This document shows positions 23,763 to 46,913 of a stretch of DNA of 48,388 bases, piece after piece. The stretch is from Clostridia bacterium. Its GTDB lineage: Bacteria; Bacillota; Clostridia; Christensenellales; Aristaeellaceae. Within the stretch, counting starts at the first letter, position 1. Every line of letters begins with the position of its first letter. The stretch lies in contig JAFQIB010000064.1 of assembly GCA_017397765.1 (NCBI GenBank), forward strand, positions 1-48,388, read 5' to 3'. The notes below the pieces were generated by a model. The model worked only from the letters and a program-made list of their open reading frames with translations. It ran no database searches and was not told the origin of the DNA. The position numbers and the translations under genes were made by a program.

Positions 23763-24857
23763 TCAGGCCTGCTCCAGAATATCCGCAATGCGCCGACAGG
23801 CCAGGCCGTCGCCGTAGGGATTGCTGGCGCGGCTCATGCGGCCGTATTCCTCCGCGTCGCACAGCAGCCGGGTAAACTCCCGGTAGATGGTCTCCTCCTC
23901 CGTGCCGACCAGCTTCAGCGTGCCGGCTGCGATGCCCTCGGGACGCTCGGTGGTGTCCCGCATCACCAGCACCGGCTTGCCCAGGGAGGGCGCTTCCTCC
24001 TGGATGCCGCCGGAATCGGTCAGGATCAGGTGGCTGCGGGCCATGAAGTTGTGGAAATCCAGCACATCCAGCGGTTCGATGATATGGATGCGGTCATCGT
24101 CCCCCAGGATCTCCGCCGCCGTCTGGCGCACCTGCGGATTCATATGGATGGGATAGATCGCCTTGACGTCGGGATGCTCATCCATCACACGGCGGATAGC
24201 CCGGAACATGTGCTTCATGGGCTCGCCGAGGTTTTCCCGGCGATGGGCGGTGATCAGGATCAGCCGGCTGCCCTCCGCCCAGGCCAGCTCAGGATGGGCA
24301 TAGTCCGCCCGGACGGTGGTCTGCAGTGCATCAATGGCGGTATTGCCGGTGACATAGATGCTCTCCGCCGCCTTGCCCTCCCGCAGGAGGTTCTCCTTCG
24401 AAGGCTCCGTAGGAGCAAAGTGGTACTTGGCGATGATGCCCACCGCCTGCCGGTTGAACTCCTCCGGATAGGGCGAATAGATGTTGTAGGTGCGCAGTCC
24501 CGCCTCCACATGGCCCACGGGGATCTGCATGTAGAAGCAGGCCAGTGCGGTCACGAAGGTCGTGGACGTATCGCCGTGCACCAGCACCACGTCCGGCTTT
24601 TCCGCCTCCAGCACAGCGCGGATGCGCTCCAGAATCCCCGTTGTCACATCGAAGAGGGTCTGCTTCGCCTTCATGATGGACAGATCGTACTCCGGCTCCA
24701 CCTGAAAAGCATGCAGCACCTGATCCAGCATCTGCCGGTGCTGACCGGTCACGCACACCACTGTCTGCAGACCCTCGCGCCGCTTCAGCTCATTGACCAA
24801 CGGGCACATCTTGATCGCTTCGGGCCGGGTACCAAATACCAGCATGACCTTTTTCAT
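23763..24857 (-). CDS. wecB: Non-hydrolysing UDP-GlcNAc 2-epimerase
   Basis: Converts UDP-GlcNAc to UDP-ManNAc in the cytosol. 364 residues, normal length. Visible: FGTRPEAIKMCPLV (residues 8-21), GDTSTTF, GHVEAGLRT, TAHRREN and DSGGIQEEAPSLGKPVLV. The ATG at 24857 has AGGAGGAAC ahead. It is the last gene of the eleven-gene exopolysaccharide run. Because Listeria Pss exopolysaccharide contains ManNAc, a dedicated epimerase here suggests UDP-ManNAc as a precursor; this is inference. It could equally serve wall teichoic acid linkage units. Confidence 0.95.
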   Translation of the reverse strand: MKKVMLVFGTRPEAIKMCPLVNELKRREGLQTVVCVTGQHRQMLDQVLHAFQVEPEYDLSIMKAKQTLFDVTTGILERIRAVLEAEKPDVVLVHGDTSTTFVTALACFYMQIPVGHVEAGLRTYNIYSPYPEEFNRQAVGIIAKYHFAPTEPSKENLLREGKAAESIYVTGNTAIDALQTTVRADYAHPELAWAEGSRLILITAHRRENLGEPMKHMFRAIRRVMDEHPDVKAIYPIHMNPQVRQTAAEILGDDDRIHIIEPLDVLDFHNFMARSHLILTDSGGIQEEAPSLGKPVLVMRDTTERPEGIAAGTLKLVGTEEETIYREFTRLLCDAEEYGRMSRASNPYGDGLACRRIADILEQA

Positions 24858-24881
24858 CTGTTGTTCCTCCTGTTGGAGTTC

Positions 24882-26711
24882 TTATTCTGCTTTATCAGGC
24901 TGAGTTTCCTGCTCGTCCGCTTCAGCCGCCTGAGGTTCCGCTGCCCGCTCCCCAGCCGCTTGCGCTTCTGCCGTCGGAGCTGCCTGCGCAGCCTGCTGCT
25001 TTGCAGCTTCAATCGCCTCGTCCTGGTACTTCTTCGTCACGGACACGCGGATATTGCCGTTGAGGATCGCGCTGCCCATATCGAAGTGGGTATGATCCTC
25101 GGGCATCTCCTTGGCGTCCACTGCCACCTCAACCACGCGGACCGGCGGTTCCTCCTGCATGCGCTCCCGCCATCCGGCCAGGGCAAAGCTGGCCAGCAGG
25201 ATCAGGAAGGGAATCATGTTGTAATGATAGCGTACCTGGGTCTCCAGCAGCATATGCGCCAGCGCCGTACCCAGGAAGAACAGGATGCACACCATCATCA
25301 TCGGATGAGGCGCCCGGTTCCTGCGCCAGGTATCCAGCACCGCCACCAGGCACAGCAGAAGCAGCATCATGTAGGCGATACGTCCCACAGGCCGCCAGTC
25401 CTCAAACATTTCCGACATTTCGGGCGTCAGCGTCCCCTGCTGGCCCATCCAGAGCAGATTCCAGTCAATGCCGAAATCGTCGGTCTGCCACAGGTCGCGG
25501 AACTTGTAGATCAGCAGATCCAGCGTGTTCTCCGGCTCCGCTGCAATTCGCTCCAGCGCCTTGTCCATGCAGGCCTTATGTGCGGCTGCTGCAGACTCCG
25601 TTTCCTCATAAGCTGCCGTAAAGAAGTCTGCGTCCTCCTGGTTCCACAATCCCAATGACTTGGAATTCACACCGACCATCAGATTGTAACCGGAAGCGGA
25701 AAGACCGCCCACCGGCTCCTCCATGATCGTGTCGGAGATCGTCCGCGTGATGATCATGCCTGTGCCAAAGTAAAACACCAGTACAAGCACCAGGCACATG
25801 ACGTTGCGGGACGCTGCATTCTGAAGCCCGGAACCATCCTGCTTTTCCCGACCCTCCTTGCCCATACCAAGCTGAACAGCCGCAAAGGCCGCCACCAGGA
25901 TCAGCGCCATGGGGCGGATCGCTCCGGCAAAGGCCAGCACAACGCCCAGCAGGCACAGCAGAACCAGCAGCCGTCCGGGCGCCCGGATGAACAGGCTGTT
26001 CTCCCTGCGATCCAGCACGCTGAGGATCAACTCCGCCGCCAGCAGCAGCAGGAGCGTGAAGGCAGGCTCCGTCGCCACCATGTTGCTGTAGAAGATATGG
26101 GAGGGCCACAGGCTCATCATCACCGTCACGCAGACCATGCCCAGCCGCCCGTGCAGCCGGTAGCCGATATGTCCAGCCAGGACGACAGAGGCCATGCTGC
26201 AGGCCAGGTTGGCATAGAGCGCGGCCTTCACCGATGCGCCAAAGATGCGGAACACCGGCGTCAGCAGCAGCATCGGGAAACCGATGGTATGGGGATACAG
26301 CGCGATATATCGCTTGTCCGCCGCGCCCTCGGGGGTCAGCAGCGTATCGTTCAGCAGATGGTTTGCGATCCGGTAGTAGGTTTCAAAGTCGCTCTCCGGA
26401 TCTATCGGGATTTTCTCAATGACCAGCAGCCTGAGCAGCAGCCCCGCCGCAAATGCAACTGCACACACACCGAAGCTGATCACCTGCTTCACGCGTTCAG
26501 GTATACTTTGCCCGCCCCTGTTCCATACGCGCACGCAGAAGAAAGCCAGCAGCGAAATACCCGCCATGCTCAGCACCCAGCGGCCCTGATTGAGGAACTC
26601 ACGCTCAGTAGCCCGGGTCACATATTCCAGCGAGGCACTCAGCGCAAGTCCCAGGCACATGATCATCAGCGCCATGAACAGATATTCCAGCAGATTCTTT
26701 TTACGGGACAT
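24882..26711 (-). CDS. GT39/ArnT-like polytopic glycosyltransferase
   Basis: Predicted lipid-phosphate-sugar-dependent GT-C glycosyltransferase. 609 residues with about ten membrane segments, a large loop holding FETYYRIANHLL near the start (residues ~100-110; the acidic residues of such loops are catalytic in GT-C enzymes), then LWPSHIFYSNMVATEPAFTL, which is typical of the ArnT/PMT-like group. After the last membrane segment comes a ~70-residue cytosolic tail rich in Ala, Gln and Glu. The start is ATG at 26711 behind AAAGGGGGG. Within the operon it may add side-chain sugars or glycosylate the carrier; the sugar is unknown. Confidence 0.75.
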   Translation of the reverse strand: MSRKKNLLEYLFMALMIMCLGLALSASLEYVTRATEREFLNQGRWVLSMAGISLLAFFCVRVWNRGGQSIPERVKQVISFGVCAVAFAAGLLLRLLVIEKIPIDPESDFETYYRIANHLLNDTLLTPEGAADKRYIALYPHTIGFPMLLLTPVFRIFGASVKAALYANLACSMASVVLAGHIGYRLHGRLGMVCVTVMMSLWPSHIFYSNMVATEPAFTLLLLLAAELILSVLDRRENSLFIRAPGRLLVLLCLLGVVLAFAGAIRPMALILVAAFAAVQLGMGKEGREKQDGSGLQNAASRNVMCLVLVLVFYFGTGMIITRTISDTIMEEPVGGLSASGYNLMVGVNSKSLGLWNQEDADFFTAAYEETESAAAAHKACMDKALERIAAEPENTLDLLIYKFRDLWQTDDFGIDWNLLWMGQQGTLTPEMSEMFEDWRPVGRIAYMMLLLLCLVAVLDTWRRNRAPHPMMMVCILFFLGTALAHMLLETQVRYHYNMIPFLILLASFALAGWRERMQEEPPVRVVEVAVDAKEMPEDHTHFDMGSAILNGNIRVSVTKKYQDEAIEAAKQQAAQAAPTAEAQAAGERAAEPQAAEADEQETQPDKAE

Positions 26712-26741
26712 GCACATCCCCCCTTTCAATCCTTGTTGCAC

Positions 26742-29696
26742 TCATTGCTGCAGCTGCTCCCGTTGCATACTGAGCCGCTTCACGCCGGCAGTCAGAAGCG
26801 AAACCAGAAGCAAGTCATGACACAGCATGAATCCGTACAGCTGTTTGTTGTTGTCAGCAAAGCCGTTGCCGATCACCGACAGCGGATACTGCAGGACGCC
26901 GATAAACATCAGCGCCAGCAGCAAAACGGTCAGCATCCTGGTTCTGGCAGAGGTTTTGCGCCTGCACAGCAGCCAGATGCAGCCTACAACGATCACGCCG
27001 TATCCCAGCACATAATGCCAGAAGGCCCGGCCCGCAAAATACGTACGGAAATTTGCCCAGCCTGTCATCCGGACGGGTCCCACCGATTCGGGATATTCCT
27101 CATCCGTATACGCCATGAAGCCCGTATGCAGCTCGACGGACTCCTGTGCCGCATGATCCAGCATGATCAGCAGATCCCTGGGATGCCGCAGGTAGTAGCC
27201 CACCATCGTAAACGTATTGACCTTGCTGTAGAATTTTTCCCATGCTTCGTCAGAAAGCGGTGCATACACATAGTCCGCATCCTCATAATAGGCATGCTTG
27301 CCAATATCCACCTTCATTTCCAACGGAATCCCAAGCTCAATCATCGCCGCGTCCGGATCCTCTGCGATCATGAGCGCACCGAAGAATACGCTCTGCCAGA
27401 CGGTGTGCCGCTCTGAAACACCCGCATTTTTCTTGTAAATGCCAAGTCCGTCACTGGCCACAGCGGCCACAAGCACCATCACCAGCAGCGCCAGCGCGGA
27501 ACAGCGCAGCACGCCTCTGGGATGATGATAAATCGCCAGGACAATGAGCAAACCCGCGCCCACCGGCAGCGCCAGCGCCATCTGCGCCTTCGCACCCACC
27601 AGGAAGCGGAAGCTCGCCGCCAGCAGGATCAGCCAGAGCCAGCTGCGTTTGCTGCCCCGGGGCATCACAGCCAGATGCAGCGCACAGGCAAGCGTCATCA
27701 TTAATCCAGTGGAAATGGAGCCTTCGCCAAAGAGAGAATTATACCATGCCGTGTAGTTTTCACCCAGCAGCATCAGCGTCAGCAGCACCGCAGGGAGCAC
27801 CGTCAGTTTGCCCAGCACACCATACAGATCCCTGATGATGCACAGCACACTCATCGTCGTCAGCGCCAGCAGCGTCAGCCCCATCACATAGGTTGAGAAG
27901 GGCTGGCCTGTCAATGCGCTCCAAAGCCTGGCAACCACCGAAGTATAGATCAGGGAGTAATTCGGATCCAGAGGCGTCAGCGCCCTCCAGTCCAGGTCGG
28001 AGGTACATTCATACTCCTCCACCACCAGCAGGCCTGCCTGGGTCTCCGGGTTTTCCAGCTGTTCCTGTGCAAAGGACAGCCCCAGCTGCTCCATCATACG
28101 GCCATAGTCGCCGTTGTTTACGCCACCCATGTGAACGTCAGGCAGAATCGTCCAGGCAATGATCACCGCCCAGGCGACAGCGGTTGCCATCAGCAGTCCG
28201 CCGCGAGTCACCGGGATGCTTCGCCGCTGTACAATCGGCTGCAGCAAAGGCTCCGGAGACAGGCGCATGCCCTTTTCCGACAGCCAGATAAACACCCGTT
28301 CAAGTCCCAGCAGCAGACCGATCATTCCATACAGCAGCAGTACCCAGCTCAGCAGCAGCACCACCGCTTTCGTTCGCGGCAGGTCGATACCGCCCGTCAT
28401 CGCCAGGCCCAGCGGAATGTACAGCACCAGTCCAGATGCCAGCGCCAGCATGCACAGCGGCAGCAGCTTCAGCCCGCTCCGGCGGCGTGCTGTCATCATC
28501 AGCAGCACGGAAACCGCCGCTGCAAAAAGCGCACGGTTCACCAGCATTTTCATGCCGCCCTGCCCGAAGGCAGTCTCCATCAGCAGGTAGACCCCCGCAT
28601 GCCCATTGAGCATCCCGCCGTCCGGCAAGGACAGATATGTGCTGTACGCATCCCGGAAGTAGATTGCACGCTCCTCCAGCATCGCCGTCATCAGCTCCGG
28701 GTGCTTCAGCAGCAGCAGGAGTCTTGCACCAAATGTCAGCTGCGCAGGGAAAACAGCATCCTCTGCCCGCGGATTATGTGCAAAGTTTTCCTCAGCCTCA
28801 TAGTAGGATCGTCCAATGTCCTGCGCATAGGATGCATCCAGTCCCAGCTCGTTCAGAATTGCTTCAGGATCTTCCGCACAGGGCAGCATCCCCTGAAACA
28901 CCGCCAGATAATTGGCTGCGTCTGAATGCACGTCCCGTTCCTGCATAAAGCCGGCTGCAGTCCCCATGATCGCAACAAAGGCCATCAGACCTGCCAGCAG
29001 CAGCTGTAAGCCTCGCTGCTTTGCGCCCGCACAGGTATGATACACGCAGATCGCACTGCCCGCAACCGCCGCGACAGAAAATGCCAGCATCCACGCCGTA
29101 CTGTTGACCATCAGCGCAGCCGTGAAGATCACGCCCAGCGCACCGCCGACGCCGCAGCCCCGCGGCTTGCAAAGCGTATTGATCATACAGCCCAGGAAGA
29201 GCATCGCGAAGGCGATCGCCGCGCCCTCCACATAGAGGCTGCGAAGGTAGCCGGTCAGTGCCGGATGCAGCATTGCCAGCGGCCAGGCAATCAGCGTCAG
29301 ATAGGCCGCCGCATAGGAGTGCCGCGCCAGTCCGCTCACCGCAAGATATGCGCCAAGACCGATCAGCACGGCGTAGACCGCCGCCAGCAGACTGGTCGAA
29401 AAAGGAAGGCCAAAGGGCTGCGTCATCAGGCGCACTGCTGCACCTGCCCACGCGATGCTGCGGAGCTTTCCGGTCAGCATCACGCCTACGTCATGCCGCA
29501 AATAGCCATACTCACCACTTTGAGCGCTATGCTCCAGCTCCGTCAGGCCCAGCGCTTCCATCACGGGAACATATGCGTCCGTCTTCTGCGCCGTCACTGC
29601 GGGAGAAACCAGCAGCACATACGCAATTGCCGCAACGGTCAGTACCGCCGCCGCAATCCCCAGTACAATCCGGTCAAGCCGGTTATGCTCCTGCAT
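26742..29696 (-). CDS. Internally duplicated WsfD-like membrane protein
   Basis: 984 residues with about twenty membrane segments. The two halves (about 1-460 and 470-984) have the same layout: a loop with MEALGL / MEQLGL, PFSTSLL / PFSTYVM, then AEDPEAILNELGL / AEDPDAAMIELGI and KHPELMTAMLEERA / RHPRDLLIMLDHAA. The second half also has GVNNGDYGRMM, which matches GLSNDGSLDNVM in the single-module protein 39958-41487. I compare them to WsfD-type hexose transferases from S-layer/wall glycan clusters, from memory. The first half lacks the NNGD motif, so one half may be inactive. The start is ATG at 29696 behind AAAGGAGG. Confidence 0.75.
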   Translation of the reverse strand: MQEHNRLDRIVLGIAAAVLTVAAIAYVLLVSPAVTAQKTDAYVPVMEALGLTELEHSAQSGEYGYLRHDVGVMLTGKLRSIAWAGAAVRLMTQPFGLPFSTSLLAAVYAVLIGLGAYLAVSGLARHSYAAAYLTLIAWPLAMLHPALTGYLRSLYVEGAAIAFAMLFLGCMINTLCKPRGCGVGGALGVIFTAALMVNSTAWMLAFSVAAVAGSAICVYHTCAGAKQRGLQLLLAGLMAFVAIMGTAAGFMQERDVHSDAANYLAVFQGMLPCAEDPEAILNELGLDASYAQDIGRSYYEAEENFAHNPRAEDAVFPAQLTFGARLLLLLKHPELMTAMLEERAIYFRDAYSTYLSLPDGGMLNGHAGVYLLMETAFGQGGMKMLVNRALFAAAVSVLLMMTARRRSGLKLLPLCMLALASGLVLYIPLGLAMTGGIDLPRTKAVVLLLSWVLLLYGMIGLLLGLERVFIWLSEKGMRLSPEPLLQPIVQRRSIPVTRGGLLMATAVAWAVIIAWTILPDVHMGGVNNGDYGRMMEQLGLSFAQEQLENPETQAGLLVVEEYECTSDLDWRALTPLDPNYSLIYTSVVARLWSALTGQPFSTYVMGLTLLALTTMSVLCIIRDLYGVLGKLTVLPAVLLTLMLLGENYTAWYNSLFGEGSISTGLMMTLACALHLAVMPRGSKRSWLWLILLAASFRFLVGAKAQMALALPVGAGLLIVLAIYHHPRGVLRCSALALLVMVLVAAVASDGLGIYKKNAGVSERHTVWQSVFFGALMIAEDPDAAMIELGIPLEMKVDIGKHAYYEDADYVYAPLSDEAWEKFYSKVNTFTMVGYYLRHPRDLLIMLDHAAQESVELHTGFMAYTDEEYPESVGPVRMTGWANFRTYFAGRAFWHYVLGYGVIVVGCIWLLCRRKTSARTRMLTVLLLALMFIGVLQYPLSVIGNGFADNNKQLYGFMLCHDLLLVSLLTAGVKRLSMQREQLQQ

Positions 29697-29715
29697 GGCT
29701 CCTCCTTTCTCCGCC

Positions 29716-32352
29716 TCAGAAGCGGCTTTCAATCTTGTTCGGTTCAGATGCTTCCATTGCATCCTGTTCACTCATCGCGCCGTCCGTGACGCGCAGGCTG
29801 TCCACCCGGGAATGGGAGAAGCGGAACAGTTCACCATGCTCATCCACCTGTGCGCCTGCCAGCAGCGTGCCCTCATACCGGGCGCAGGAGCTGCTGACGC
29901 GGCCCGCCAGTTCACCGTTGAGATACACGGCGTACTCGCTGCCGTCGCGGGTGATGACCAGATGCATGCTGCCGTTTTCCACCGGCAGCCGCAGGCTGCC
30001 ATGTTCGCCCAGGAGGATCGCCAGTTCCTCGTTTTCCTGTCGGATCAGCAATCCGCGGTATTCGCCCGGCACCTCGCTGAAGCAGCTCAGATACACGCCC
30101 GCATTGCCCTGGGGTGTCGTCTTCAGCACCGCATCCAGCGTCCAGGCCATTTCCTCCGCCGCAAAGAGCTGCACGCCCAGATCAGCATAGCGATCATAGC
30201 CGTTGCCAACGAAGGGGCGCTCCAGCGCACAGTTCACAGAAGGTGCAACATAGTCCCCAGGCATAGGCAGCTCCGGCAGCACCGTCTGCAGCAGCGCTTC
30301 TTCTTCCACCACGCCCGCAAACACCTTCAGGTTCTTCACCCGGGTGCTGCTGACGCGGAAGATGCGGCCCTCGCTGTTGTGCTGCGCGCCGATCAGCAGT
30401 GTATTGTTCATCGGCTTCACGCTGCTGGATACGCCGCTGACCAGCTTTTCTCCGTTCACCCAGACAGAACACACCGCTCCGTCCTTGGTGACGAGGATGG
30501 TCATTTCCTGCCCGTTCTCACAGGGGATATCCAGACCGAAGTTCTCGCCATAGAGAATATTGATCCTATTCTCATCCGTCTGCCGGACCAGCAGACCGCC
30601 GTATTCGCCGGGAACCTCGCTGAAGCAGCTGAGGAACACATTGTCCCCCGGCGCATACTCCGGCAGAATGGTGGCTGCAAGCGTAAAGCGGGTAGCCGGT
30701 GACTCGAAGAGCTTCAAGCCCGTATCTATATACGCGTTCTGCGCATAGGTATCATCATCACCCATGAACTGCTCCTGCAGGGCGAAGACCTCCGCAGGCT
30801 CCGCATTGATCGTTCCCAGCGGCATTTCCGGCTCCGGCAGCGCATCGGGCTGCCAGGCCTCCGCCTGCTGCTTCGTCCAGGCGGTGTTATAGACCTCCAG
30901 GTCCCTCACGCAGGTCCGGCTGAAGCGGAACTTCTCCCCGCCTGCGCTCAACTCCTGACAGCCAACCAGCAGCGTGCCGCTGTAGGGCGCACAGGATCGC
31001 GTTTCCTGCCAGCAGGCCCACTGACCGTCAAAGCAGACGCTGTAGGCTTCTCCATCCTTGATGATCGCCAGATTGACGATCTGCTTGTCTGTTTCAGGCA
31101 GCTCTACCGACTCGTTGCCACCCAGAAGCAGCTGCAGCTTGCCGTTGACCTGGCGCAGCAGCAGACCGCGATAGGCCGAAGCGTCCTCCTCGCTGAAGCA
31201 GGACAGATAGACCGTATCGCCGCTCTCGACCGGCGTGGTATCCACGCTGGTCAGCAGCGTCCAGGAGCCCATGCGCTGGCGGAACATCGTCACGCCCGTA
31301 TCAACATGCTTCTGTGCGCCGTCGCCGCGGAATACCTCTGCCAGCTCATATACCGGCGTGGCAGCCTCCGCCGCTTCCTGCTCTGTCAAGCCATACCAGG
31401 GGTGGGTCGGATCGCCGCGGCGATCTGCCAGCTGAAAGTTCTCCTGCAGATAATCGGTAAAAACCCTTGTGTATTTTTCAATTCCGGCATTGTTAAAGTG
31501 GCCGATATCGGAAAAATCTGCAGACGGATCAATCCCCATCTGTGCCCAGGTCCTGAACATATTCAGGAACGGGACGTCAAGTTCACAAGCAATCTCCTCT
31601 ACACGGATAAACCGTCGATATTCTTCCTCCGTCGCACAGAATGGAGCGACCGTCAGCACCAGCTCCACGTTTTTCGCTCTGCACAGATCTGCGATCTTTC
31701 TCAGATACGCTTCGTTCTTCTCGGTCAGCGCAAGCGGTTCGTATGCCGCATTGCCGTCAAGCAGCTCGATGGGGAAAACATAATCTGTATTCGGCTGCAC
31801 CGTCGGGATAATCTCGTCATCCCAGCCATAGAGTCCATGAAAGTCGTTCGCAACCAGCTCGTCATAGCGGCTGTGGTAATAAGGCATTCCCCACAGCGCC
31901 TCCACCGCATCCTGCCACTTTTCAAAAGACTCAAACGCCATTTTGACCCGGTTCAGACCCTTGGGCATGGCAGAGACATGCTTTAGCGCCACATCCTTGG
32001 CAGAATATACCGCTGTATTTCCGCACATGAACACATCCATCACAACAACCTTCGGCTGCTGGGATTTGAGGCACTCTTTCAGATAAAAGTAGGTATTCCA
32101 TATGGGTTGCATACCGCCCCAGAGGTTATAGCTGGGGATACCGGTATCTTCCCAGATCTGACGATTGTTAATGTTCATACCGGCATGGGAGGAACCGGCA
32201 AACACCACGTCCACCGTCCCCGGCTTCAGTTTCTGAAACAGGACGATCGACCGCATGTCGGAGGTCTTGATCTTCAGCACGGTATCCACCGCGCCGTACA
32301 CCAGCGCCAGCACCAGCAGGAACGCCAGCGCACGAATGATTTTCTTTGTCAT
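29716..32352 (-). CDS. Membrane-anchored SGNH O-acyltransferase-like protein with three LamG-like repeats
   Basis: 878 residues. An N-terminal membrane anchor (about 6-24) places the rest outside the cell. An SGNH/AlgJ-like domain follows (about 45-310): block I GSSH (53-56) holds the candidate Ser, and DIGH (282-285) supplies the Asp-x-x-His pair. Three tandem concanavalin/LamG-like modules (about 335-505, 515-690, 705-870) each carry a D-G-V/L-F start, VYLSCFSE or VFLSCFSE, GLLLRQ and a GTLLVG-type strand. With the MBOAT gene just upstream this is the standard pair for O-acylating an extracellular polysaccharide; the repeats may hold the glycan. The start is ATG at 32352, using the GGAGG next to the MBOAT stop. 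Confidence 0.85.
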   Translation of the reverse strand: MTKKIIRALAFLLVLALVYGAVDTVLKIKTSDMRSIVLFQKLKPGTVDVVFAGSSHAGMNINNRQIWEDTGIPSYNLWGGMQPIWNTYFYLKECLKSQQPKVVVMDVFMCGNTAVYSAKDVALKHVSAMPKGLNRVKMAFESFEKWQDAVEALWGMPYYHSRYDELVANDFHGLYGWDDEIIPTVQPNTDYVFPIELLDGNAAYEPLALTEKNEAYLRKIADLCRAKNVELVLTVAPFCATEEEYRRFIRVEEIACELDVPFLNMFRTWAQMGIDPSADFSDIGHFNNAGIEKYTRVFTDYLQENFQLADRRGDPTHPWYGLTEQEAAEAATPVYELAEVFRGDGAQKHVDTGVTMFRQRMGSWTLLTSVDTTPVESGDTVYLSCFSEEDASAYRGLLLRQVNGKLQLLLGGNESVELPETDKQIVNLAIIKDGEAYSVCFDGQWACWQETRSCAPYSGTLLVGCQELSAGGEKFRFSRTCVRDLEVYNTAWTKQQAEAWQPDALPEPEMPLGTINAEPAEVFALQEQFMGDDDTYAQNAYIDTGLKLFESPATRFTLAATILPEYAPGDNVFLSCFSEVPGEYGGLLVRQTDENRINILYGENFGLDIPCENGQEMTILVTKDGAVCSVWVNGEKLVSGVSSSVKPMNNTLLIGAQHNSEGRIFRVSSTRVKNLKVFAGVVEEEALLQTVLPELPMPGDYVAPSVNCALERPFVGNGYDRYADLGVQLFAAEEMAWTLDAVLKTTPQGNAGVYLSCFSEVPGEYRGLLIRQENEELAILLGEHGSLRLPVENGSMHLVITRDGSEYAVYLNGELAGRVSSSCARYEGTLLAGAQVDEHGELFRFSHSRVDSLRVTDGAMSEQDAMEASEPNKIESRF

Positions 32353-32365
32353 GCCTGCCGCCTCC

Positions 32366-33874: not shown

Positions 33875-33904
33875 GTGCAGTACACCCCGCTTGTTGTCTC
33901 TTGC

Positions 33905-36271: not shown

Positions 36272-36287
36272 TGCGTATCCCCCTTTA

Positions 36288-37544
36288 TCAATCAGCAGAT
36301 CGTTCGGTTTTGTACCATTTGACTTCCTGCTTGGTGAACATCTTCTTGAACGTCATCCAGGCGGCGCGGACGACCACCACCACCCACAGCTTGGCGTAGG
36401 TGAAGAGCATCAGCAGCACCAGGAAGACCGATTCCATATTGAATTCATTCTTTTCCGTCGACAATGTGAGCATGATGTTGCACTCAAACAGCAAACAAGC
36501 CATCACCCACACCAGCGTACTCAATCCGCCCAGCGACACATGGCAGTAGCCCAGCACGCCCAGCACGAAGATCGTGTCCGAGCAGATCAGCGCCGTCGCC
36601 ATAAGGAAGTAGACCATCGTGTAATACAGCACATCCAGCCGCATTTTGCCTGCATGGGGATCGAACACATACTTGAAGTTGTTCATCAGCACATACAGGT
36701 TGCCCATGGCCCAGCGGGTACGCTGCTTCATCCAGATATCCAGGCGGAAGGGCTCCTGCTCCCAGGTGACCGCCTGGGGCACCTGACGGATCTTGTAGCC
36801 CATGCGGTAGATGCGGAAGCTGATCTCCGTATCCTCCGACAGCGCCTGCGGGTCCCAGCCGCCGATCTTCTCGATGATGTGGCGGTGGATGACAAAATTG
36901 GTGCCCGGGATGGTGCACAATCCGAAGTAGAACCACCGGCCCGCCTGATTCATGCACTGATGGGCCAGCGTCTCGATGTTGACAAAGCGCGTCAGGAGCG
37001 AAGCGTTGCGGTTGCGGGTGCGGAACTTGCCGATCACCGCGCCCAGGCTCTCATCCGCCATCAGATGTTCCACCAGGATCCGCAGCGCACGGGGCTCCGG
37101 GGTGTTGTCGGCGTCATAGATCGCCAGCACCGTGCCCTTGGCCACGGAGAAACCGATGTTGAGCGCATTGGATTTGCCCTTGCCGCCCAGCTGGTTGTCC
37201 GTGTTGACCACCACCAGCTTGCGGTCCGGATGCTCCGCCTGCACGGCGGCCAGCTTTTCGGCGGTATCGTCCGAGGAGTTGTCGTTGATGACGATGATCT
37301 CGTACCGGTCCGCCGGATAGTCGAAGCGCAGCAGCGCCCGCACCGTGCGCTGGATGACCGCGCTCTCATTATGTGCGGGCACCATCACCGACACGAAGGG
37401 GTACTCCTCCAGCGGGATATTGGGGTCCTGCCGTTCCATCTTGTAGTAATACAGGAAGCCGCCGACCGACAGGAACACATTGATGGCCATCAGGGCCCAG
37501 ATTGCAACCATGGCAAAGAGCGTCAGATAATCCGCAAGATTCAT
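36288..37544 (-). CDS. Processive family 2 glycosyltransferase (YdaM/PssC type)
   Basis: Predicted polysaccharide synthase that polymerises and exports a beta-linked chain. 418 residues: N-terminal membrane helices, then a GT-A domain with NDNSSDD (D88), DADN (D144, D146), GTNFVIH, the acceptor-base motif SEDTEI (D238) and QRTRW (274-278), which marks processive synthases, then four membrane helices. There is no PilZ domain after the helices (only about 20 basic residues), so c-di-GMP must act through another subunit. The start overlaps the DUF2334 gene as ATGA. The donor sugar cannot be read; UDP-ManNAc or UDP-Glc are both possible. Confidence 0.93.
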   Translation of the reverse strand: MNLADYLTLFAMVAIWALMAINVFLSVGGFLYYYKMERQDPNIPLEEYPFVSVMVPAHNESAVIQRTVRALLRFDYPADRYEIIVINDNSSDDTAEKLAAVQAEHPDRKLVVVNTDNQLGGKGKSNALNIGFSVAKGTVLAIYDADNTPEPRALRILVEHLMADESLGAVIGKFRTRNRNASLLTRFVNIETLAHQCMNQAGRWFYFGLCTIPGTNFVIHRHIIEKIGGWDPQALSEDTEISFRIYRMGYKIRQVPQAVTWEQEPFRLDIWMKQRTRWAMGNLYVLMNNFKYVFDPHAGKMRLDVLYYTMVYFLMATALICSDTIFVLGVLGYCHVSLGGLSTLVWVMACLLFECNIMLTLSTEKNEFNMESVFLVLLMLFTYAKLWVVVVVRAAWMTFKKMFTKQEVKWYKTERSAD

Positions 37545-39097
37545 ACCCCACGCTCCTTCCCTTTCCCAGCCCGGACAGCTTCATTGGTCTTTTTCTTCTT
37601 CGCCTGCAGCAGCTCGCCGCGGATGCTGCGCCGCACCAGGAACATGGCCACGGCAAAAAAGCTGCAGCTGACCACCACAAAGAGCATGATCAGCTTGTTG
37701 CCGCCCTCGATCTGTTCCTTCATGTTCTGCATGAAGCCCCGGTAGAACTCATGCTTTTCCTCGTATTCAAAGGGCACATAGGTCAGCGGGATCTCCTCGC
37801 CGTTATAGACGAGGGTACCGTCTGCCGCCGCCTGCAGGAACTGGTCGCCGGCGTAGACGACATTCTCCATCGCCCTGAGGTTCTTGAGGGTACGGCGGGA
37901 ACTCTTGATGGCTTCCACCTGCGCCCGGAGCGCTTCCACATCCTGATTGACGTCCAGGTAGATTGCCTGGGCGTACGCATCGGTGTAAGTCAGAGCCCCT
38001 TCCCGGGCAGAACCCACCAGCTGATGGCCGTCCCTGAAGGCCAGATTGACGTCCACCCGATCCCCATACACGTCCTCACCGCTGACAAAGGTGAACACCG
38101 TGCGGAAGCCGCGCAGCACGCTCAGGCCCTTCTCGCTCAGCAGCCAGCTTTCCGGCGTCTGGATCGCCAGGGGGTAAACCCCAAGGTTTGCATAGCCCTC
38201 ATAGGCGATGCTGATATGCCGTTTGATCTCTTCCGTCTCCGTGTTCTGCAGCGTCACCAGAGGCGCATGCAGGATGACGCCCGCGCCCCGGCTCTGCACA
38301 TAGGTCAGATACTCGCAGAAGCGCTGCATCGCCGGGTACTCGCCGTTGGCATACAGCGGCATCACCGAGAGCGCATAGGGGACGTTCTCCTCCTCCAGCA
38401 TATCGGTGATCTTCATCAGCCGCGCCGGATCGTCGAAGGGATACACCCGATCCAGCACCAGATAGTAGCCGTAGCCGCGGGGGGCGTCCTCAAAGGGCCA
38501 GCGCCAGATCTGCAGGCAGGTCGCCAGATAGTTGGCAAAATCCGCATTGTCCGGCTGATAGTATGCCAGATGGGTCACCCGCTCCGTCCGCTGGCACAGC
38601 GGATAAGCCTCGGCCCCCACAAACACCTGCCCGCCCAGGGATTCCCCCCGGTCTGCCAGCAGCGTCACTTCGTTTTCCTTGAGCAGCATGTCCTGCTTCT
38701 GCCGGTTTTCCGTCTCCAGCCGGATCACCAGCGTGCCCTGCACATGCCGGACGGGCGCAAGCTGCACCAGCGTACCGCTGCCGATGACAAAGATGGGCAG
38801 TTCACTGTCCAGCAGCTGGGTGACCGTCTTTTCCGGCAATCTGTAGCCGTCATCCACGCAAAGCAGCACGCCCTCGCAGCCCGTCAGCGCCACCGGGTCC
38901 TCCACGGATCGATAGCGGCAGTTCCAGTTGCTGTACATGGCGATCTGCCGGATGGTCTGCATGGTCCTTGCCGCATCGCCCTGGGCCTCCTCGGTGGAGA
39001 TCACCAGCAGATGGGTCGGCTCAGCCGCCAGGGCGGTCAGGGGCAGGAGCAGCGCCAGCAGCAGGATCAGCGCCGCCGCGCCGTACCGCTTACACAT
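37541..39097 (-). CDS. DUF2334 deacetylase-fold membrane protein (YdaL type)
   Basis: 518 residues: signal peptide (1-25, ending TALAA), an N-terminal Rossmann-like region, a DUF2334 domain starting YYLVLDRVYPFDD (211-223), with ILHAPLV and LGVYPLAIQTPESWLLS further on, and a C-terminal membrane helix with a Lys-rich tail. DUF2334 is related to the NodB polysaccharide deacetylase fold, but the usual metal triad is not clearly seen (only D216 and D222-D223 in the core motif), so activity is uncertain. Equivalent in place to YdaL. It overlaps its upstream neighbour by 8 bases and the synthase by 4, so translation is tightly coupled. Confidence 0.85.
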   Translation of the reverse strand: MCKRYGAAALILLLALLLPLTALAAEPTHLLVISTEEAQGDAARTMQTIRQIAMYSNWNCRYRSVEDPVALTGCEGVLLCVDDGYRLPEKTVTQLLDSELPIFVIGSGTLVQLAPVRHVQGTLVIRLETENRQKQDMLLKENEVTLLADRGESLGGQVFVGAEAYPLCQRTERVTHLAYYQPDNADFANYLATCLQIWRWPFEDAPRGYGYYLVLDRVYPFDDPARLMKITDMLEEENVPYALSVMPLYANGEYPAMQRFCEYLTYVQSRGAGVILHAPLVTLQNTETEEIKRHISIAYEGYANLGVYPLAIQTPESWLLSEKGLSVLRGFRTVFTFVSGEDVYGDRVDVNLAFRDGHQLVGSAREGALTYTDAYAQAIYLDVNQDVEALRAQVEAIKSSRRTLKNLRAMENVVYAGDQFLQAAADGTLVYNGEEIPLTYVPFEYEEKHEFYRGFMQNMKEQIEGGNKLIMLFVVVSCSFFAVAMFLVRRSIRGELLQAKKKKTNEAVRAGKGKERGV

Positions 39098-39950
39098 CGT
39101 ACATCAGCTCACCCTCTACCGCCTTCTTGAAGCGGATCATATCCGCGCCGTATGCTTCCTTGTCGTACTGCTTGGCCGCAGAGCGCATCTCCAGCCGGGT
39201 GCCGCGCTCCAGGATGCCGCTCATGTCCGCCGTCTCCAGCATACCGTAAATACGCGCCTTGGCGACGGTGCTGCCCTCCTCGGTGGTGGTCAGCAGCACA
39301 GCGATGGTGCCGTGCTCGTCGATGCAGTACACTCTGTCCTCCGCGCGGACATTGCCCTGTACCAGCTCCGCCAGCCGCCGAAGCAGCTCAGAATACTTGG
39401 CTGCGGACAGCATCCGGCGCAGCTCGCTCTCATAGCGCATCTGGGTGATGAACAGCGTCAGGGGCAGATCGTTTCGCGCGCAGTAATGCACCATGATCTG
39501 CAGATCGCGGTACAGAGCGCGCAGATTGTACAGGCCAGTCGTCTCGTCGATCAGCACCTGCTCCTCCACCTGACGGCGCAGCAGCTCATTCTCGGTGTTG
39601 ATGCTTCGGACGCTCGCTTCATACAGCGTTGCCGCCAGCACGCCCAGCAGGGGCATGGGGATCATCACATAGTCCATCGCATAGAAGCTCTCGCCCCGCA
39701 TGTAGAATGCATAGAGCTTCCAGGCCACCCACACGCAGGTGATTGTGCCGCCCAGGGCAAGGCCGGAATTGCGGCGGCCCAGATAGCTCACCAGCACCGC
39801 TGCATCCGCGCAGAAGAAAATCACCAGATACTTCGTCACATTCTCCTTGGCAGACAGCGCCAGCAGCACTGCCTGGGCAAAGGCCCACAGCAGCAGCAGC
39901 AATATGGACAGATCGCGGCTCAGGGATACGTCCCGTTTCCTGTTACTCAT
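39090..39950 (-). CDS. Membrane-anchored degenerate GGDEF c-di-GMP receptor (YdaK/PssE type)
   Basis: 286 residues: about four membrane helices (13-110), a short linker, and a GGDEF-fold domain (about 125-286). The active-site GGDEF is replaced by DEHGT (211-215) and the metal Asp region reads FITQMRYES, so it should not make c-di-GMP. The inhibitory-site motif RAED (202-205) sits exactly five residues before DEHGT, the same spacing as RxxD in PleD. That is the pattern of c-di-GMP receptors such as YdaK, PssE and PelD. It probably switches on the adjacent PilZ-less synthase. The start is ATG at 39950; an upstream TTG is rejected because it sits at the neighbour's stop. Confidence 0.9.
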   Translation of the reverse strand: MSNRKRDVSLSRDLSILLLLLWAFAQAVLLALSAKENVTKYLVIFFCADAAVLVSYLGRRNSGLALGGTITCVWVAWKLYAFYMRGESFYAMDYVMIPMPLLGVLAATLYEASVRSINTENELLRRQVEEQVLIDETTGLYNLRALYRDLQIMVHYCARNDLPLTLFITQMRYESELRRMLSAAKYSELLRRLAELVQGNVRAEDRVYCIDEHGTIAVLLTTTEEGSTVAKARIYGMLETADMSGILERGTRLEMRSAAKQYDKEAYGADMIRFKKAVEGELMYDV

Positions 39951-39957
39951 CCGATCC

Positions 39958-41487
39958 TCACTCCTTGTCAATCTTGATGATATTCAGCTTGTGCAGCACC
40001 TCGGAGAGGAACAGCACCACCAGAATGTCAATGAATACGCTCATCAGGAAGCTCTGGCGCACCAGCGTGCTGTCGCCGGTCATCATAATCACCGTCAGCA
40101 GCTCCACCATGGCAAACACTGTCAGCAGGGCGCAGAGCATGGTGAATACCTTCTCTGCCTCGCCGGCGGCGGTATCCTCCTTCTTCCTGCGGCGGAAGAA
40201 GATGATCGCCACGCAGAGCAGCAGCAGCAGACCGGCCGTCTGGGGCGCGCTGCGCTCCTTGAAGGTGGACCAGACCGCCATCAGCGGCGATTTTGCCCGG
40301 GGCGGGAGGCCCGCGCTGCGCTCATAGTTACCGCTGAAATCCGAGCGGGTGATAAACGCGCTGTGGGTGCCCACGTCGAACAGGCTCATCAGATCCAACG
40401 GATGGGTCGCATAGTACAGCGCCACCTCGCCTGCGTCATACTGATCCAGGAAGTCCTCGTCCAGCACCCCTGAGAACACATCCGCCACAGGGAAGCTCTG
40501 GGCTGCATAGGTATCCGTCAGCAGGCTGTAGCGGGGTTCAATGCCGAAGAACGCCAGCGCCTCCTCCGGGTTGTCCGCCTGGAAGAGAACGCCGCGGGTC
40601 ATCTGATCATACTTTTCCGTTTTCGACTGGTTCTGCACCAGATCCGCTGTGTTCACCACGCTGATGAAGCACAGCAGCAGCGCCGCAGCCAGATAGGCCG
40701 TGCGGTGGATCACATCCGTCTTCCGGCGCAGCAGCAGCCAGTAGGCCATGGCGAACACCATGCAGGCCAGCGACGTGTAGCGGTTCACCCCCATCAGCAG
40801 CCAGCAGGCCAGCAGCATGCTCATCTGGGGCAGCCAGGCCTCCCTGCGCCAGGGAATCAGGAACACCGCGTCCGCCAGCACGATCATCAGTATCAGCTCC
40901 CAGGCCTGTGTGTACAGGGAGGCAAGGCGCACCACGATGGTCGTATCACCGAACACCAGCACGCTGAACACCGCCAGCACCAGGCCCTCGGAGTAAACCC
41001 GCACGCGGCTGAGCACGCCGCGCAGCAGCGGGAAAAGCGCCGCCAGATACAGGATCATATAGATGCCGGCCAGCACCCGGATATCAAACACGCCGTCATG
41101 CCCGGTCAGCACCTCATCCATCCAGATGGCAAAATTGACCGTCATTCTGAGCAGCGCCGGCGTGGTATCCGGTCGCCAGGTGTTCGGGGCAATCAGATAC
41201 AGCCGGTCATAATAGCTGAAGTACGGGTCCTCCGCGTCCGGGTTGATGGGCGCAAGGCCCACGTCCAGCATCACATTGTCCAGACTGCCGTCATTGGACA
41301 GGCCCAGATACGGCGGCACGAGCAGAATCATCGTCATGATAACCGCCAGCACGCCCAGCGCCGCCAGCGCCAGATGGGCAGGACGATAGTGGGTGCGCAT
41401 CCGCTTGTCAAAGCGCCGCACGACGCTCAGCAATGCGTCCCAGCCTTTCTTGATCCATCCGCCCAGTTTGAACAGCCATCGCATCAT
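39958..41487 (-). CDS. Single-module WsfD-like polytopic membrane protein
   Basis: 509 residues with about eleven membrane segments. An N-terminal basic region precedes the first helix, followed by a loop with YLGLSNDGSLDNVM, and later ADNPEEALAFFGIEP and YYATHPLDLMSLFDVG. All three blocks recur in the second half of the 984-residue protein at 26742-29696, so the two are paralogous. Probably a GT-C type glycosyltransferase or a related glycan export protein; the reaction is unknown. It is inserted between the ydaJ-like and ydaK-like genes, where B. subtilis has none. The start is ATG at 41487 with GGGAGGTG ahead. Confidence 0.75.
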   Translation of the reverse strand: MMRWLFKLGGWIKKGWDALLSVVRRFDKRMRTHYRPAHLALAALGVLAVIMTMILLVPPYLGLSNDGSLDNVMLDVGLAPINPDAEDPYFSYYDRLYLIAPNTWRPDTTPALLRMTVNFAIWMDEVLTGHDGVFDIRVLAGIYMILYLAALFPLLRGVLSRVRVYSEGLVLAVFSVLVFGDTTIVVRLASLYTQAWELILMIVLADAVFLIPWRREAWLPQMSMLLACWLLMGVNRYTSLACMVFAMAYWLLLRRKTDVIHRTAYLAAALLLCFISVVNTADLVQNQSKTEKYDQMTRGVLFQADNPEEALAFFGIEPRYSLLTDTYAAQSFPVADVFSGVLDEDFLDQYDAGEVALYYATHPLDLMSLFDVGTHSAFITRSDFSGNYERSAGLPPRAKSPLMAVWSTFKERSAPQTAGLLLLLCVAIIFFRRRKKEDTAAGEAEKVFTMLCALLTVFAMVELLTVIMMTGDSTLVRQSFLMSVFIDILVVLFLSEVLHKLNIIKIDKE

Positions 41488-41569
41488 CCTGCTCACCTCC
41501 CTGCGGCCCTTCCGCCGCCTTCCGTTTCTTCTCACGATCCCCTGCCCGCAGCCGGGTCAGGGTGGCTTG

Positions 41570-43156
41570 TCATTCCATCGCCAGCCAGGCCAGCCAGGCA
41601 AGGGCTGCCTCCAGCTCGTCGAAGGTAAAATGCTCCGTCGGGGCTGCTTCGCCGTAGCCGCCCGTCATCGCCGGGTCAAAGCTGCGTCTGCGCTCCATGC
41701 GCTCCAGCGCCATCCGGGCAAGCTCCTTCCGTCCCGCTTCTGCACCGATCTGCACCAGCAGGGAGTAAGTCGCATTGGATTCAAATTCATAGCCAGGCAG
41801 CACCTGTCCGTCTGCACCATAGCGGGCGTAGACCGGGCCGGCAGCCAGGGTATTCTCCAGCCAGTCCAGCGTCCGGGGCTGGGCGACGCCCGCACGCACA
41901 GCGTTGAGCACCGCCACGCAGGCTTCGTTCATCTGCAGCAAATCTCCCTCATACGCCTGCTTTTCCGCATCATACCGGGCGTAATAGAGGGGCAGCTGTT
42001 CACTGACAAGGGCTGCGGGATCATTCAGCAGCCCGGCAGCCTTGTCCGCCGCCTCCTGCCAGCGCGGATCATAGGCCGCAGCCGCCCGCATCGCCGCTGC
42101 ATCCATGTAGCAAAGCGTCACAGCCCTGCCGGTCTCCGCTTTTTCCAGGGACGCAAAGTCCCGCATCAGGCCGTCCCGGACGCAGCGGTCATACAGCGCC
42201 TCCGCCCGGATCTGCGCATCATGGCTGTACAGGCCCCATTTGTCATCCGCCATGGCCAGCGCTTCGATGATTCGCAGGTCATCCAGCGCCGCGTTGACCT
42301 CCGCCCGCGTACCGTCCACCGTACGCCAGGCCGTCAGCCCGCCGGCAGACATGGCGTTCACCGCCTGCCAGGCCCGGTCAAAGCCAGCCCGATCATCCAG
42401 CTGCACCGCGCAGAGCATCATCAGTCCCAGGCTCTCGGACAGCACCGTATTGCCCGGTATCGCTGTCCCTTCCTCAATCCGGTAGCCGGAGGCCGGCGCC
42501 CCGGAGGCTGCGGTCAACTTGGTTTCCACAAAGCGCAGCGTCTGCGCCGCCGGATTGTTCACATAGGTCAGCAGTGCCGCCAACTCTGCCGCATCCGGCA
42601 GCTTGCTGGCGGTATACATCAATCGGCCCTGTGCATCCAGGATCGCCGTCGAGGGCACCCAGTGCAGCCCCAGCGCTTCATACAGCGCGGCGTCCGGGTC
42701 CATCAGCGTCTGCTCCTGCAGGCCCAGCTGGGCAAGGACAGCCTCTGCCGCTGCCCGGGAGTCCTCCCGGACGCCCTCCCTGCAGACCAGCTGCACCGCT
42801 GCCCCCATGCTCCTTGCCGACTGCGCCGCCTGCGGAAACTCATCCTTCAGGGTTTCCTTGCAGTCGCCGCACCAGCTGGACCAGAAGATCAGCACCGTCG
42901 GCCTGCCCCGGAGAGAAGACAGCTTCACCTTCCGGCCGTCTCCATCCGTCAGTACACCCTCCGGCACGCTGTACAGCACGCTTCTGTCCGGCTGGAAATC
43001 CTTGGAGGTTTTCAGTTCCGGCATTGCCGCCGGCAGCACCGGCGCCTGCGGAGGCTTCCGCAGCAGCAGACCGCCGATATACACCATCGCTGCCAGCAGC
43101 ACTGCGATCAGCAGCAGCAGCGCTGCGATCAGCATCCGATAGCCCTTCCGGTGCAT
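41570..43156 (-). CDS. Thioredoxin-GH8-like fusion (YdaJ/PssZ position)
   Basis: 528 residues. An N-terminal membrane anchor (8-32) puts the protein outside. Residues 65-200 are a TlpA-like thioredoxin domain with SSWCGDCK (C96, C99). Residues 205-528 are alpha-helical and match family 8 hydrolases: VLSESLGLMML (E241 at the place of the general acid), LDDRAGFDRAW, GGLTAWR, then ALDDLRIIEALAMADDKWG (D292, D293), the GH8 region usually read A-x-D-x-D-x-x-I-A. The hydrolase should trim the polysaccharide made by the operon. The thioredoxin fusion is unexpected. First gene of the operon, with AAGGAGG before the ATG. Confidence 0.82.
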   Translation of the reverse strand: MHRKGYRMLIAALLLLIAVLLAAMVYIGGLLLRKPPQAPVLPAAMPELKTSKDFQPDRSVLYSVPEGVLTDGDGRKVKLSSLRGRPTVLIFWSSWCGDCKETLKDEFPQAAQSARSMGAAVQLVCREGVREDSRAAAEAVLAQLGLQEQTLMDPDAALYEALGLHWVPSTAILDAQGRLMYTASKLPDAAELAALLTYVNNPAAQTLRFVETKLTAASGAPASGYRIEEGTAIPGNTVLSESLGLMMLCAVQLDDRAGFDRAWQAVNAMSAGGLTAWRTVDGTRAEVNAALDDLRIIEALAMADDKWGLYSHDAQIRAEALYDRCVRDGLMRDFASLEKAETGRAVTLCYMDAAAMRAAAAYDPRWQEAADKAAGLLNDPAALVSEQLPLYYARYDAEKQAYEGDLLQMNEACVAVLNAVRAGVAQPRTLDWLENTLAAGPVYARYGADGQVLPGYEFESNATYSLLVQIGAEAGRKELARMALERMERRRSFDPAMTGGYGEAAPTEHFTFDELEAALAWLAWLAME

Positions 43157-43300
43157 AGGCGGCCTCCTTGTTCTTTCTGTATAACGCGAAATGCCGGTCA
43201 GGTCCTTGCAGTTTCCGTCCGGCTGCAGGGATCGGCCGGCCCTGCTGCAGCGCCCGTCAAGGCTTGAGCGCCCCGCATTCCGCCATCCAACCCCATTATG

Positions 43301-43329
43301 AGTATAGCATATTCACACGTCGTTTTCTA
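43301..43329 (-). promoter_or_regulatory. Promoter of the exopolysaccharide operon
   Basis: On the minus strand: TAGAAA (-35, 43324-43329), 17-bp spacer, TATACT (-10, 43301-43306) with an extended TGC. The ~140-base leader includes GCAGGG/CCCTGC around CGGCCG near 43226-43246, which could fold on the transcript. Confidence 0.65.
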
Positions 43330-43423: not shown

Positions 43424-43424
43424 C

Positions 43425-43454: not shown

Positions 43455-43541
43455 TTTATTTGGATTTGTTTTTCGTAACCGCAAAGCGCTGCCGCCGGAA
43501 TGCCGCCGGTATCTCTATCCGTTGCCAAAGGAGCCGATGTT

Positions 43542-44934: not shown

Positions 44935-44970
44935 ACCGCCGGAGGCATGGTTCCTCCGGCGGTCATCTTT
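44935..44970. terminator. Bidirectional terminator between two GGDEF genes
   Basis: 11-bp perfect stem ACCGCCGGAGG/CCTCCGGCGGT (44935-44945 with 44953-44963), 7-nt loop, then CATCTTTT on plus. The genes converge here. Confidence 0.88.
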
Positions 44971-46844: not shown

Positions 46845-46858
46845 GGGCAATCCTTCCA

Positions 46859-46913
46859 AATGCCGATGCAAGGCTGTCCTTCAGACATTCGCTGACAGCC
46901 TTGCATCGGCATT
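46859..46913 (-). promoter_or_regulatory. Perfect 20-bp hairpin in the GGDEF gene leader
   Basis: Arms at 46859-46878 and 46894-46913 are exact complements (left arm AATGCCGATGCAAGGCTGTC), with a 15-nt loop. On the transcript the stem ends one base before GGAAGG, the ribosome site, and begins about 18 bases after the expected transcription start. No T-run follows on either strand, so it is not a simple terminator. It could control translation or protect the mRNA end. Confidence 0.85.

Follow-up and report, generated by a model that had tools for sequence, protein, structure and literature searches.

An eleven-gene block in an uncultured Clostridia lineage: a predicted c-di-GMP-gated exopolysaccharide operon related to Listeria pss, with added tailoring genes

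The structure of Pss, the insoluble exopolysaccharide made by the Listeria pss locus, was reportedly solved by Koseoglu et al. in 2015. The polymer is described as a chain of beta-1,4-linked N-acetylmannosamine (ManNAc) with alpha-1,6-linked galactose on every other residue (PMC11439720, PMC5422440, PMC5039582). In the locus, the gene for the synthase PssC is followed by that for the BcsB-like protein PssD and, last, by that for the I-site receptor PssE, which has a degenerate GGDEF domain with an RxxD motif, binds cyclic diguanylate (c-di-GMP) with a dissociation constant of 0.79 μM and is essential for the polymer (PMC4125290). The Bacillus subtilis operon ydaJKLMN similarly comprises a glycosyl hydrolase gene, the gene for an RxxD-dependent c-di-GMP receptor and three synthesis and secretion genes (PMC13274460, PMC5422440), and the RxxD motif of its receptor YdaK is indispensable (PMC5422440). 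Statements about published systems, here and below, follow excerpts of the papers cited. We describe here a block of eleven genes in a 48,388-nucleotide stretch of DNA (contig JAFQIB010000064.1 of assembly GCA_017397765.1; "the window" below) from an uncultured Clostridia lineage. With a probability that we put at roughly 0.7, the block would be an operon akin to Listeria pss, extended by tailoring genes, for a c-di-GMP-gated, branched, O-acylated ManNAc exopolysaccharide.

The block consists of 11 long open reading frames (ORFs) that follow one another on the minus strand, beginning at position 43156 and ending at 23763; the coordinates are those of an ORF list with mechanically assigned start codons. 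In transcription order the genes are as follows.

g01, 41570..43156, minus strand: redoxin plus hydrolase, with one transmembrane (TM)-like segment, a thioredoxin/ResA-like domain (WCGDC) and a GH126-like (PssZ/CPF_2247) hydrolase domain
g02, 39958..41535, minus strand: multi-spanning membrane protein of WsfD type that corresponds to Listeria PssA in both position and sequence similarity; predicted to transfer lipid-linked hexoses
g03, 39090..39971, minus strand: PssE/YdaK-type membrane-bound protein whose GGDEF domain is degenerate and matches the family model weakly; predicted to bind c-di-GMP as a receptor through its I-site
g04, 37541..39097, minus strand: DUF2334 protein (PssB/YdaL type; PF10096, 1e-9) with two TM-like ends and a middle part predicted to be extracellular
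g05, 36288..37544, minus strand: family 2 glycosyltransferase (GT2) of 418 amino acids (aa), predicted polymer synthase (PssC type; PF13641, 4e-38)
g06, 33905..36271, minus strand: BcsB-like membrane-anchored translocation partner (PssD type; PF03170, 9e-51)
g07, 32366..33874, minus strand: MBOAT O-acyltransferase, DltB-like (PF03062, 1e-30)
g08, 29716..32400, minus strand: SGNH-like putative acyl-transfer partner, then three LamG-like repeats (LamG PF13385, 4.7e-10)
g09, 26742..29771, minus strand: fused protein of 1009 aa with WsfD-like modules at about residues 26-366 and 528-1006 (NF051875, 339 bits)
g10, 24882..26741, minus strand: multi-spanning protein, GT-C-like by its relatives (PMT_2/GT39-like, weakly STT3-like)
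g11, 23763..24857, minus strand: wecB, non-hydrolysing UDP-N-acetylglucosamine (UDP-GlcNAc) 2-epimerase (TIGR00236, 519.2 bits against a cut-off of 210.15)

From g01 to g11, the joints between successive genes measure 34, -14, -8, -4, 16, 30, -35, -56, 0 and 24 bases, negative values being overlaps; five joints are overlaps and the largest gap is 34 bases. These figures bear out a first-pass annotation, made from the letters alone, which had reported eleven genes on one strand with gaps under 85 bases. Its gene families were right in substance, but corrections were needed to the type of hydrolase, to where one WsfD gene lies and to the make-up of g09. The order ydaJ-K-L-M-N that it gave does not hold, since the hydrolase and GGDEF genes are separated by the WsfD-like gene at 39958-41535, and what it described as two WsfD-like proteins after the SGNH gene is the single gene g09, within which two WsfD-like modules were indeed detected with the g02 profile. 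Two diguanylate-cyclase-like genes directly upstream, listed below, fall outside its interval. Separate promoters within the run were also looked for. Across the region and on both strands, we counted 9 promoter-like sites against a mean of 6.0 in shuffled sequences (standard deviation, sd, 2.7) and 13 terminator sites against 11.3 (sd 3.7), that is, no clear excess of promoters over the shuffles, although one promoter-like 10/12 site on the minus strand (41411-41383) lies inside g02.

By homology, the core formed by g02 to g06 is pssA-E. All five genes have matches in one operon of Listeria marthii (locus L081), where their order is g02-g04-g05-g06-g03, in agreement with the published account of pssA-E for those genes that it names. 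We observed the highest identity for the synthase g05 (58% over 416 aa), then for g06 (27% over 675 aa, 2e-62) and g02 (23% over 457 aa, 2e-34), and weaker similarity for g03 (22% over 276 aa) and g04 (24% over 140 aa). Against the family model NF051875, which has a cut-off of 80 bits, g02 scored 278 bits and the first gene of the L. marthii operon 565 bits; the L. marthii record carries no annotation, and the names PssA and PssB are applied to g02 and g04 from position. The first-pass annotation had given, as a result that would refute it, a match of the synthase and BcsB-like protein to an unrelated polymer family; both instead match this pss-type operon. Because the second gene is a pssA counterpart, Listeria pss is the closest described relative of the block, and the plain ydaJKLMN reading was set aside on the same ground. 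The earlier view of the locus as an enlarged Yda/Pss member stands as regards the degenerate GGDEF protein with RxxD and the added acylation and side-chain genes, with the correction that the nearest relative is Pss.

The window differs from Listeria pss in that the receptor gene, last in Listeria, directly follows the WsfD-like gene; in that the hydrolase, which is related to PssZ (6r2m), is part of the operon and is preceded by a thioredoxin-like domain; and in the addition of g07-g11, for tailoring and supply. The B. subtilis operon, compared through its published description, has no WsfD-like gene among its five, and DUF2334 was the only family seen to match in a B. subtilis control. A GT2 synthase, a BcsB-like partner and a DUF2334 protein occur in one run in the window, with no PilZ match in Pfam. 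Membership of g05 in two established synthase families was considered and rejected: it scored 182.5 bits to the poly-N-acetylglucosamine (PNAG) synthase model PgaC_IcaA against a cut-off of 422.3, and 71.6 bits to the cellulose synthase model CelA against a cut-off of 699.1, the latter again with no PilZ match.

We searched 300 genomes of the family for the synthase and found 13 carriers, including the window's own genome (G000). With the BcsB protein as query, 4 of 60 relatives proved to be carriers, and among 398 genomes of the phylum 15 had the synthase at an expectation value (E) of 1e-120, the neighbourhood being read for the window's own. For comparison we assembled 87 distinct loci, namely the window, the 12 other family carriers and the best 80 of 511 relatives from a scan of named genomes, with 6 duplicates merged. 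The gene profiles were seeded from the window and three relatives and rebuilt from the loci, and hence depend on the sequences that they score. By these profiles the synthase g05 was present in all 87 loci, g03 and g04 in 86 each, g06 in 85, g02 in 83 and the hydrolase g01 in 74; g10 was found in 33, g11 in 19, g07 in 17, and g08 and g09 in 15 each. The complete core was present in 82 of the 87, the exceptions (G275, L059, L073, L093 and L113) being cut by contig ends.

All eleven genes were found in five of the loci (the window, G004, G014, G069 and G084) and ten genes in seven more, among them G008. The eleven-gene set therefore recurs and is not unique to the window, and its co-occurrence is beyond chance; a synteny search for the block, which the first-pass annotation had named as a check, thus recovered 11/11 genes in four other genomes and 10/11 in G008. 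The window's exact eleven-gene order was seen once and the order g01-g10 in 5/87 loci. In G014 the complete set is split into two divergent runs. Tailoring genes stand upstream of the core, downstream of it or, in G014, between its parts, and stay beside it. Since the set stays together while the order changes, we take the genes to share one task. An open-access literature search found no described eleven-gene locus of this kind, and none in uncultured Clostridia; a term look-up in a published survey of synthase-dependent operons (PMC7112194) gave no occurrence of Listeria, pssA, DUF2334 or ydaM.

A midpoint-rooted tree of the 87 synthases contains a fully supported branch that separates 36 loci from 51. 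The window lies on the 36-locus side, with Clostridia and three bins labelled Chloroflexota; Listeria, Paenibacillus, Acetobacterium and Clostridium make up the other. Of the 36 loci, 33 contain g10, against 0 of the 51, and the three loci of the first side in which it was not found (G071, L049 and L059) are on short contigs. These distributions bear on a different view of the block, in which a Pss core of five or six genes merely adjoins a separate set (MBOAT, SGNH-LamG, double WsfD, PMT_2-like and wecB) that decorates another wall polymer. In its favour, g07-g10 are absent from the fetched stretches of the 51-locus side and vary in order; yet g10 follows the synthase grouping closely, the tailoring genes keep beside the core wherever they are placed, including in G014, and in the window the genes from g07 to g10 abut or overlap one another. 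We regard such a division into two neighbouring units as improbable. In the three Chloroflexota-labelled bins (L061, L068 and L069) we counted 8, 9 and 10 genes of the block; their nesting in the clostridial side of the tree reflects either transfer or mis-binning.

Residues expected of a working synthase are retained. In g05, D88, D144, D146, E237, D238, Q274, R277 and W278, which we take to be the GT2 motifs, were present in 87/87 homologues. We also observed a W-x-K-T-x-R tail at residues 410-415, each letter of which is kept in at least 93% of the 87 homologues. The clan of DUF2334 is presumably of the metal-dependent deacetylase type, and this role was considered for g04; it was rejected, as no Asp/Glu/His column reached 93% and two reached 70% in 84 homologues, a weak result from a divergent alignment.

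An active diguanylate cyclase has the motif GG(D/E)EF. The window copy of g03 has RAED and, five residues on, DEHGT in the GGDEF place; RxxD was conserved in 84/84 homologues and GG[DE]EF in 0/84, the partial copies in G275 and L119 being below the score limit. These observations, with the published properties of PssE and YdaK, are consistent with a receptor that binds c-di-GMP. We also observed [YF][DE][VI] within the last six residues of g03 in 84/84 homologues, and exactly at the terminus in 77. The Tyr may be the one usual in the GGDEF end helix, to which Y-D-V partly belongs, so that the distinctive feature may be no more than the abrupt stop that comes next; this stop could be a docking end. 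Candidate sources of the nucleotide lie next to the block:

dgcU1, 43500..44912, plus strand: PAS_4 plus GGDEF domain (PF00990, 1.6e-37) with a GGDEF motif, divergent from the block and 344 bases from it; candidate c-di-GMP source
dgcU2, 44970..46871, minus strand: LacI-type sugar-binding domain (PF13377, 3.8e-22) fused to a GGDEF domain (PF00990, 1.7e-25) with SGDEF; candidate sensor cyclase

A cyclase-type ORF was present in 16 of the 87 fetched stretches, namely the window, G014 (where the ORF lacks a GGDEF/GGEEF motif) and 14 loci of Paenibacillus type, of which one bears the title Bacillus sp.; none was seen in the other 71. The 14 share one cyclase-type neighbour of about 524 aa and may represent one event. 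In dgcU2, Pfam detected no DNA-binding domain beside the LacI-type domain, and from its domains the protein is possibly a sugar-sensing cyclase.

The product of wecB is UDP-ManNAc, and the distribution of this gene is one reason to suppose that the backbone is probably a ManNAc polymer. In the window's genome the copy in the operon is the sole match at E 1e-40. We searched nine of the 13 carrier genomes at the same threshold, and eight had exactly one wecB, which was in the operon in five (G000, G004, G014, G069 and G084) and elsewhere in three. Among the 300 family genomes, wecB was found in 12 of the 13 synthase carriers against 74 of the 287 others (one-sided Fisher p 1.7e-6, with relatedness ignored and the two 300-genome draws taken as identical); four carriers belong to one genus and four to another, and by genus the gene was present in 7/7 carrier genera against 26/50 overall. 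In Acetobacterium-type loci (L076, L088, L091, L094, L104, L113 and L119), the pss core is closely followed downstream by wecB and a GH126 gene, for the most part on the opposite strand (six loci), and in L088, L091, L094, L104 and L119 a gene for an NAD-dependent sugar epimerase upstream (Pfam on L119 only). A parallel in plan, likened by description, is the NGR system of Escherichia coli (nfrA/nfrB/wecB), which depends on c-di-GMP and WecB and is postulated to make a ManNAc polymer; a related cluster in Achromobacter includes homologues of BcsB and of O-acetyltransferases as well (PMC8669472). Those systems differ in being Gram-negative and in having the outer-membrane protein NfrA.

The same c-di-GMP-gated operon might instead build a backbone of GlcNAc (PNAG-like) or glucose, with UDP-ManNAc going to side chains or another wall polymer. 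The synthase does match PgaC_IcaA (182 bits) and CelA (72 bits), BcsB is a cellulose-type partner, PssC is reported to resemble PNAG and cellulose synthases about equally (Chen et al., PMC4125290), and wecB was absent from 68 of the 87 fetched stretches. Both model scores are nevertheless far under their cut-offs, the 418-aa synthase has no PilZ match and is 58% identical to a Listeria synthase whose product is reported to be ManNAc, and wecB is tied to the synthase across the family genomes. We consider a backbone other than ManNAc unlikely, though less so than the two-unit arrangement discussed above.

Branching of the chain is predicted from the WsfD-like genes. The fused protein g09, at 339 bits to NF051875 against the cut-off of 80, gave two matches to the g02 profile, of 53.8 and 134.7 bits. 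In Paenibacillus alvei, WsfD is a putative alpha-1,6-glucosyltransferase acting onto ManNAc with a lipid-linked glucose donor (PMC2943079); the acceptor sugar and linkage proposed for it are those of the Pss branch. The surface-layer (S-layer) glycan that WsfD and WsfH serve is likened to ours through the family model: the two have in common the WsfD match and a proposed step in which a lipid-carried hexose is joined alpha-1,6 to ManNAc, and they differ in that the S-layer glycan uses an ATP-binding cassette (ABC) transporter route and no c-di-GMP-gated synthase. In addition, 7/87 loci (L064, L065, L082, L083, L108, L115 and L116) have an intact GT2 gene of gtrB type directly adjoining the block on the same strand, with pieces of one in L110, and a gtrA gene abuts the other end, also on the same strand, in 5/87 (L065, L082, L083, L115 and L116). 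The search profiles for both derive from the very genes that make up these sets; Pfam assigned three GtrB examples to PF00535 and two GtrA examples to PF04138, and one flanking GtrB scored 315 bits to PgfS, under the model cut-off. Four of the gtr-flanked loci form one Paenibacillus clade, so that the independent cases are fewer. In the nine carrier genomes searched, GtrA was found in 9/9 and a GtrB-like protein in 8/9, on contigs other than the operon's. GtrA and GtrB with a GT-C protein constitute a known plan of multi-component transmembrane glycosylation (PMC8035078, in the excerpted text of which Pss and WsfD do not appear). From the WsfD precedent for acceptor and linkage and from the gtr flanking, we infer that PssA/WsfD proteins attach the branch hexose extracellularly.

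For g10, the first-pass label GT39-like is carried by its relatives: of the 33 known in the loci, 24 were aligned and 23 of these matched PMT_2 (PF13231), the exception being the window copy, which had no Pfam or NCBIfam match of its own. The archaeo_STT3 model matched 12 of the 24, far below its cut-off. We also observed a conserved FDM..A...G motif close to the C-terminal end of the g10 homologues; in the window, G004 and G008 a low-complexity stretch comes after it, much longer in the latter two.

The g07 protein scored 167 bits to LTA_dltB (cut-off 375) and retains His295 in 17/17 and His335 in 16/17 homologues, which we take to be the MBOAT histidines. For g08, the earlier SGNH label has support in Ser71, Asp298 and His301, presumably the SGNH triad, which were kept in 15/15 long homologues, but Pfam gave no SGNH match in the window copy or in four homologues; LamG was the only relevant match, in one case just under the cut-off. 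The three LamG-like repeats are 33-42% alike. An MBOAT protein with an acyl-transfer partner beside a GT2 synthase has been proposed to carry out O-acetylation in the clostridial locus ccsZABHI, which differs from ours in the PilZ domain of CcsA, a GH5 hydrolase and a region of CcsB that resembles a carbohydrate-binding module, and in the five-gene description of which no GGDEF receptor appears (PMC7710045).

The front of g01 matched redoxin (PF08534, 3e-12), and Pfam GH8 was below its cut-off. By its matches to solved structures, the hydrolase domain is GH126-like: 3ren matched at 8.9e-32 to 1.1e-31 (residues 226-521) and 6r2m at 3e-9 to 1e-8 (residues 238-498). These entries are CPF_2247 and PssZ, both of GH126, and thioredoxin-like fronts have been reported in four GH126 proteins (PMC7479077), so that the fusion is not new; it is, yet, regular in the window's group of loci. 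Proteins longer than 480 aa were 32 of the 33 g01 homologues on the window's side of the tree and 0 of the 41 on the other, and CxxC near the front was present in 30/33 against 0/41 (the thioredoxin-like domain itself was searched for in the window copy). The pattern was not seen in L061, L068 and L069. Glu241 was conserved in 73 of 74 homologues, with one gap.

From the gene content, conservation, motifs and co-occurrence observed, we propose the following pathway, of which each enzymatic step, sugar and linkage is predicted. Diguanylate cyclases, perhaps dgcU1 and dgcU2, would raise c-di-GMP, which g03 would bind through RxxD and so switch on g05. With UDP-ManNAc supplied by g11, g05 would build a beta-1,4-ManNAc chain and, with g06 and g04, pass it through the membrane. 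Outside the cell, g02, g09 and probably g10 would add hexose branches from undecaprenyl-phosphate sugars, and the g07/g08 pair would add O-acyl (probably acetyl) groups, perhaps with the LamG repeats keeping hold of the chain. Trimming or release of the polymer would fall to the GH126-like domain of g01.

Several observations, in addition to the PNAG-model score (182 bits, cut-off 422) and the 68 stretches in which no wecB was seen, weigh against this proposal. The product is a prediction from sequence; the source is a metagenome bin, 89% complete with 2.3% contamination. UDP-GlcNAc 2-epimerases also serve other wall polymers, and the synthase-positive genome G008 (87% complete) gave no epimerase match at E 1e-40. 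No Rfam family reached its gathering score in the window, and so no c-di-GMP riboswitch was found; upstream of the block (43100-43600) there were only two microRNA-family matches, both below gathering scores. The gtrA/gtrB adjacency is absent in at least 80 of the 87 loci, including the window, the genome of which has both genes on other contigs. Profiles of g02 and g10 had 0 matches to solved structures at E 1, and comparison of the two with each other gave a probability of 2.4 and no alignment, so that the GT-C fold is only predicted.

What is new here is the Pss machinery combined with tailoring genes, an arrangement found repeatedly in uncultured Clostridia. From homology, gene context and precedents in the literature, we suggest, at about even odds, that these loci belong to a modular family of c-di-GMP-gated ManNAc systems in Clostridia, Paenibacillus, Listeria and some Anaerolineae-labelled bins, in which the PssA/WsfD proteins, a constant component, would be alpha-1,6-hexosyl transferases that act on the secreted chain and are fed by GtrB/GtrA-type undecaprenyl-phosphate sugar. 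The family would be most heavily tailored in Clostridia of the gut and rumen, where O-acylation would be joined by as many as four GT-C-like modules. If true, this would give a gene-level prediction of the enzyme that adds the galactose branches to Listeria Pss, a step for which no enzyme is named in the excerpts of the literature cited. It would also predict a matrix polymer for uncultured Clostridia, the backbone sugar of which, through the tie to wecB, could be tested without culturing the host.

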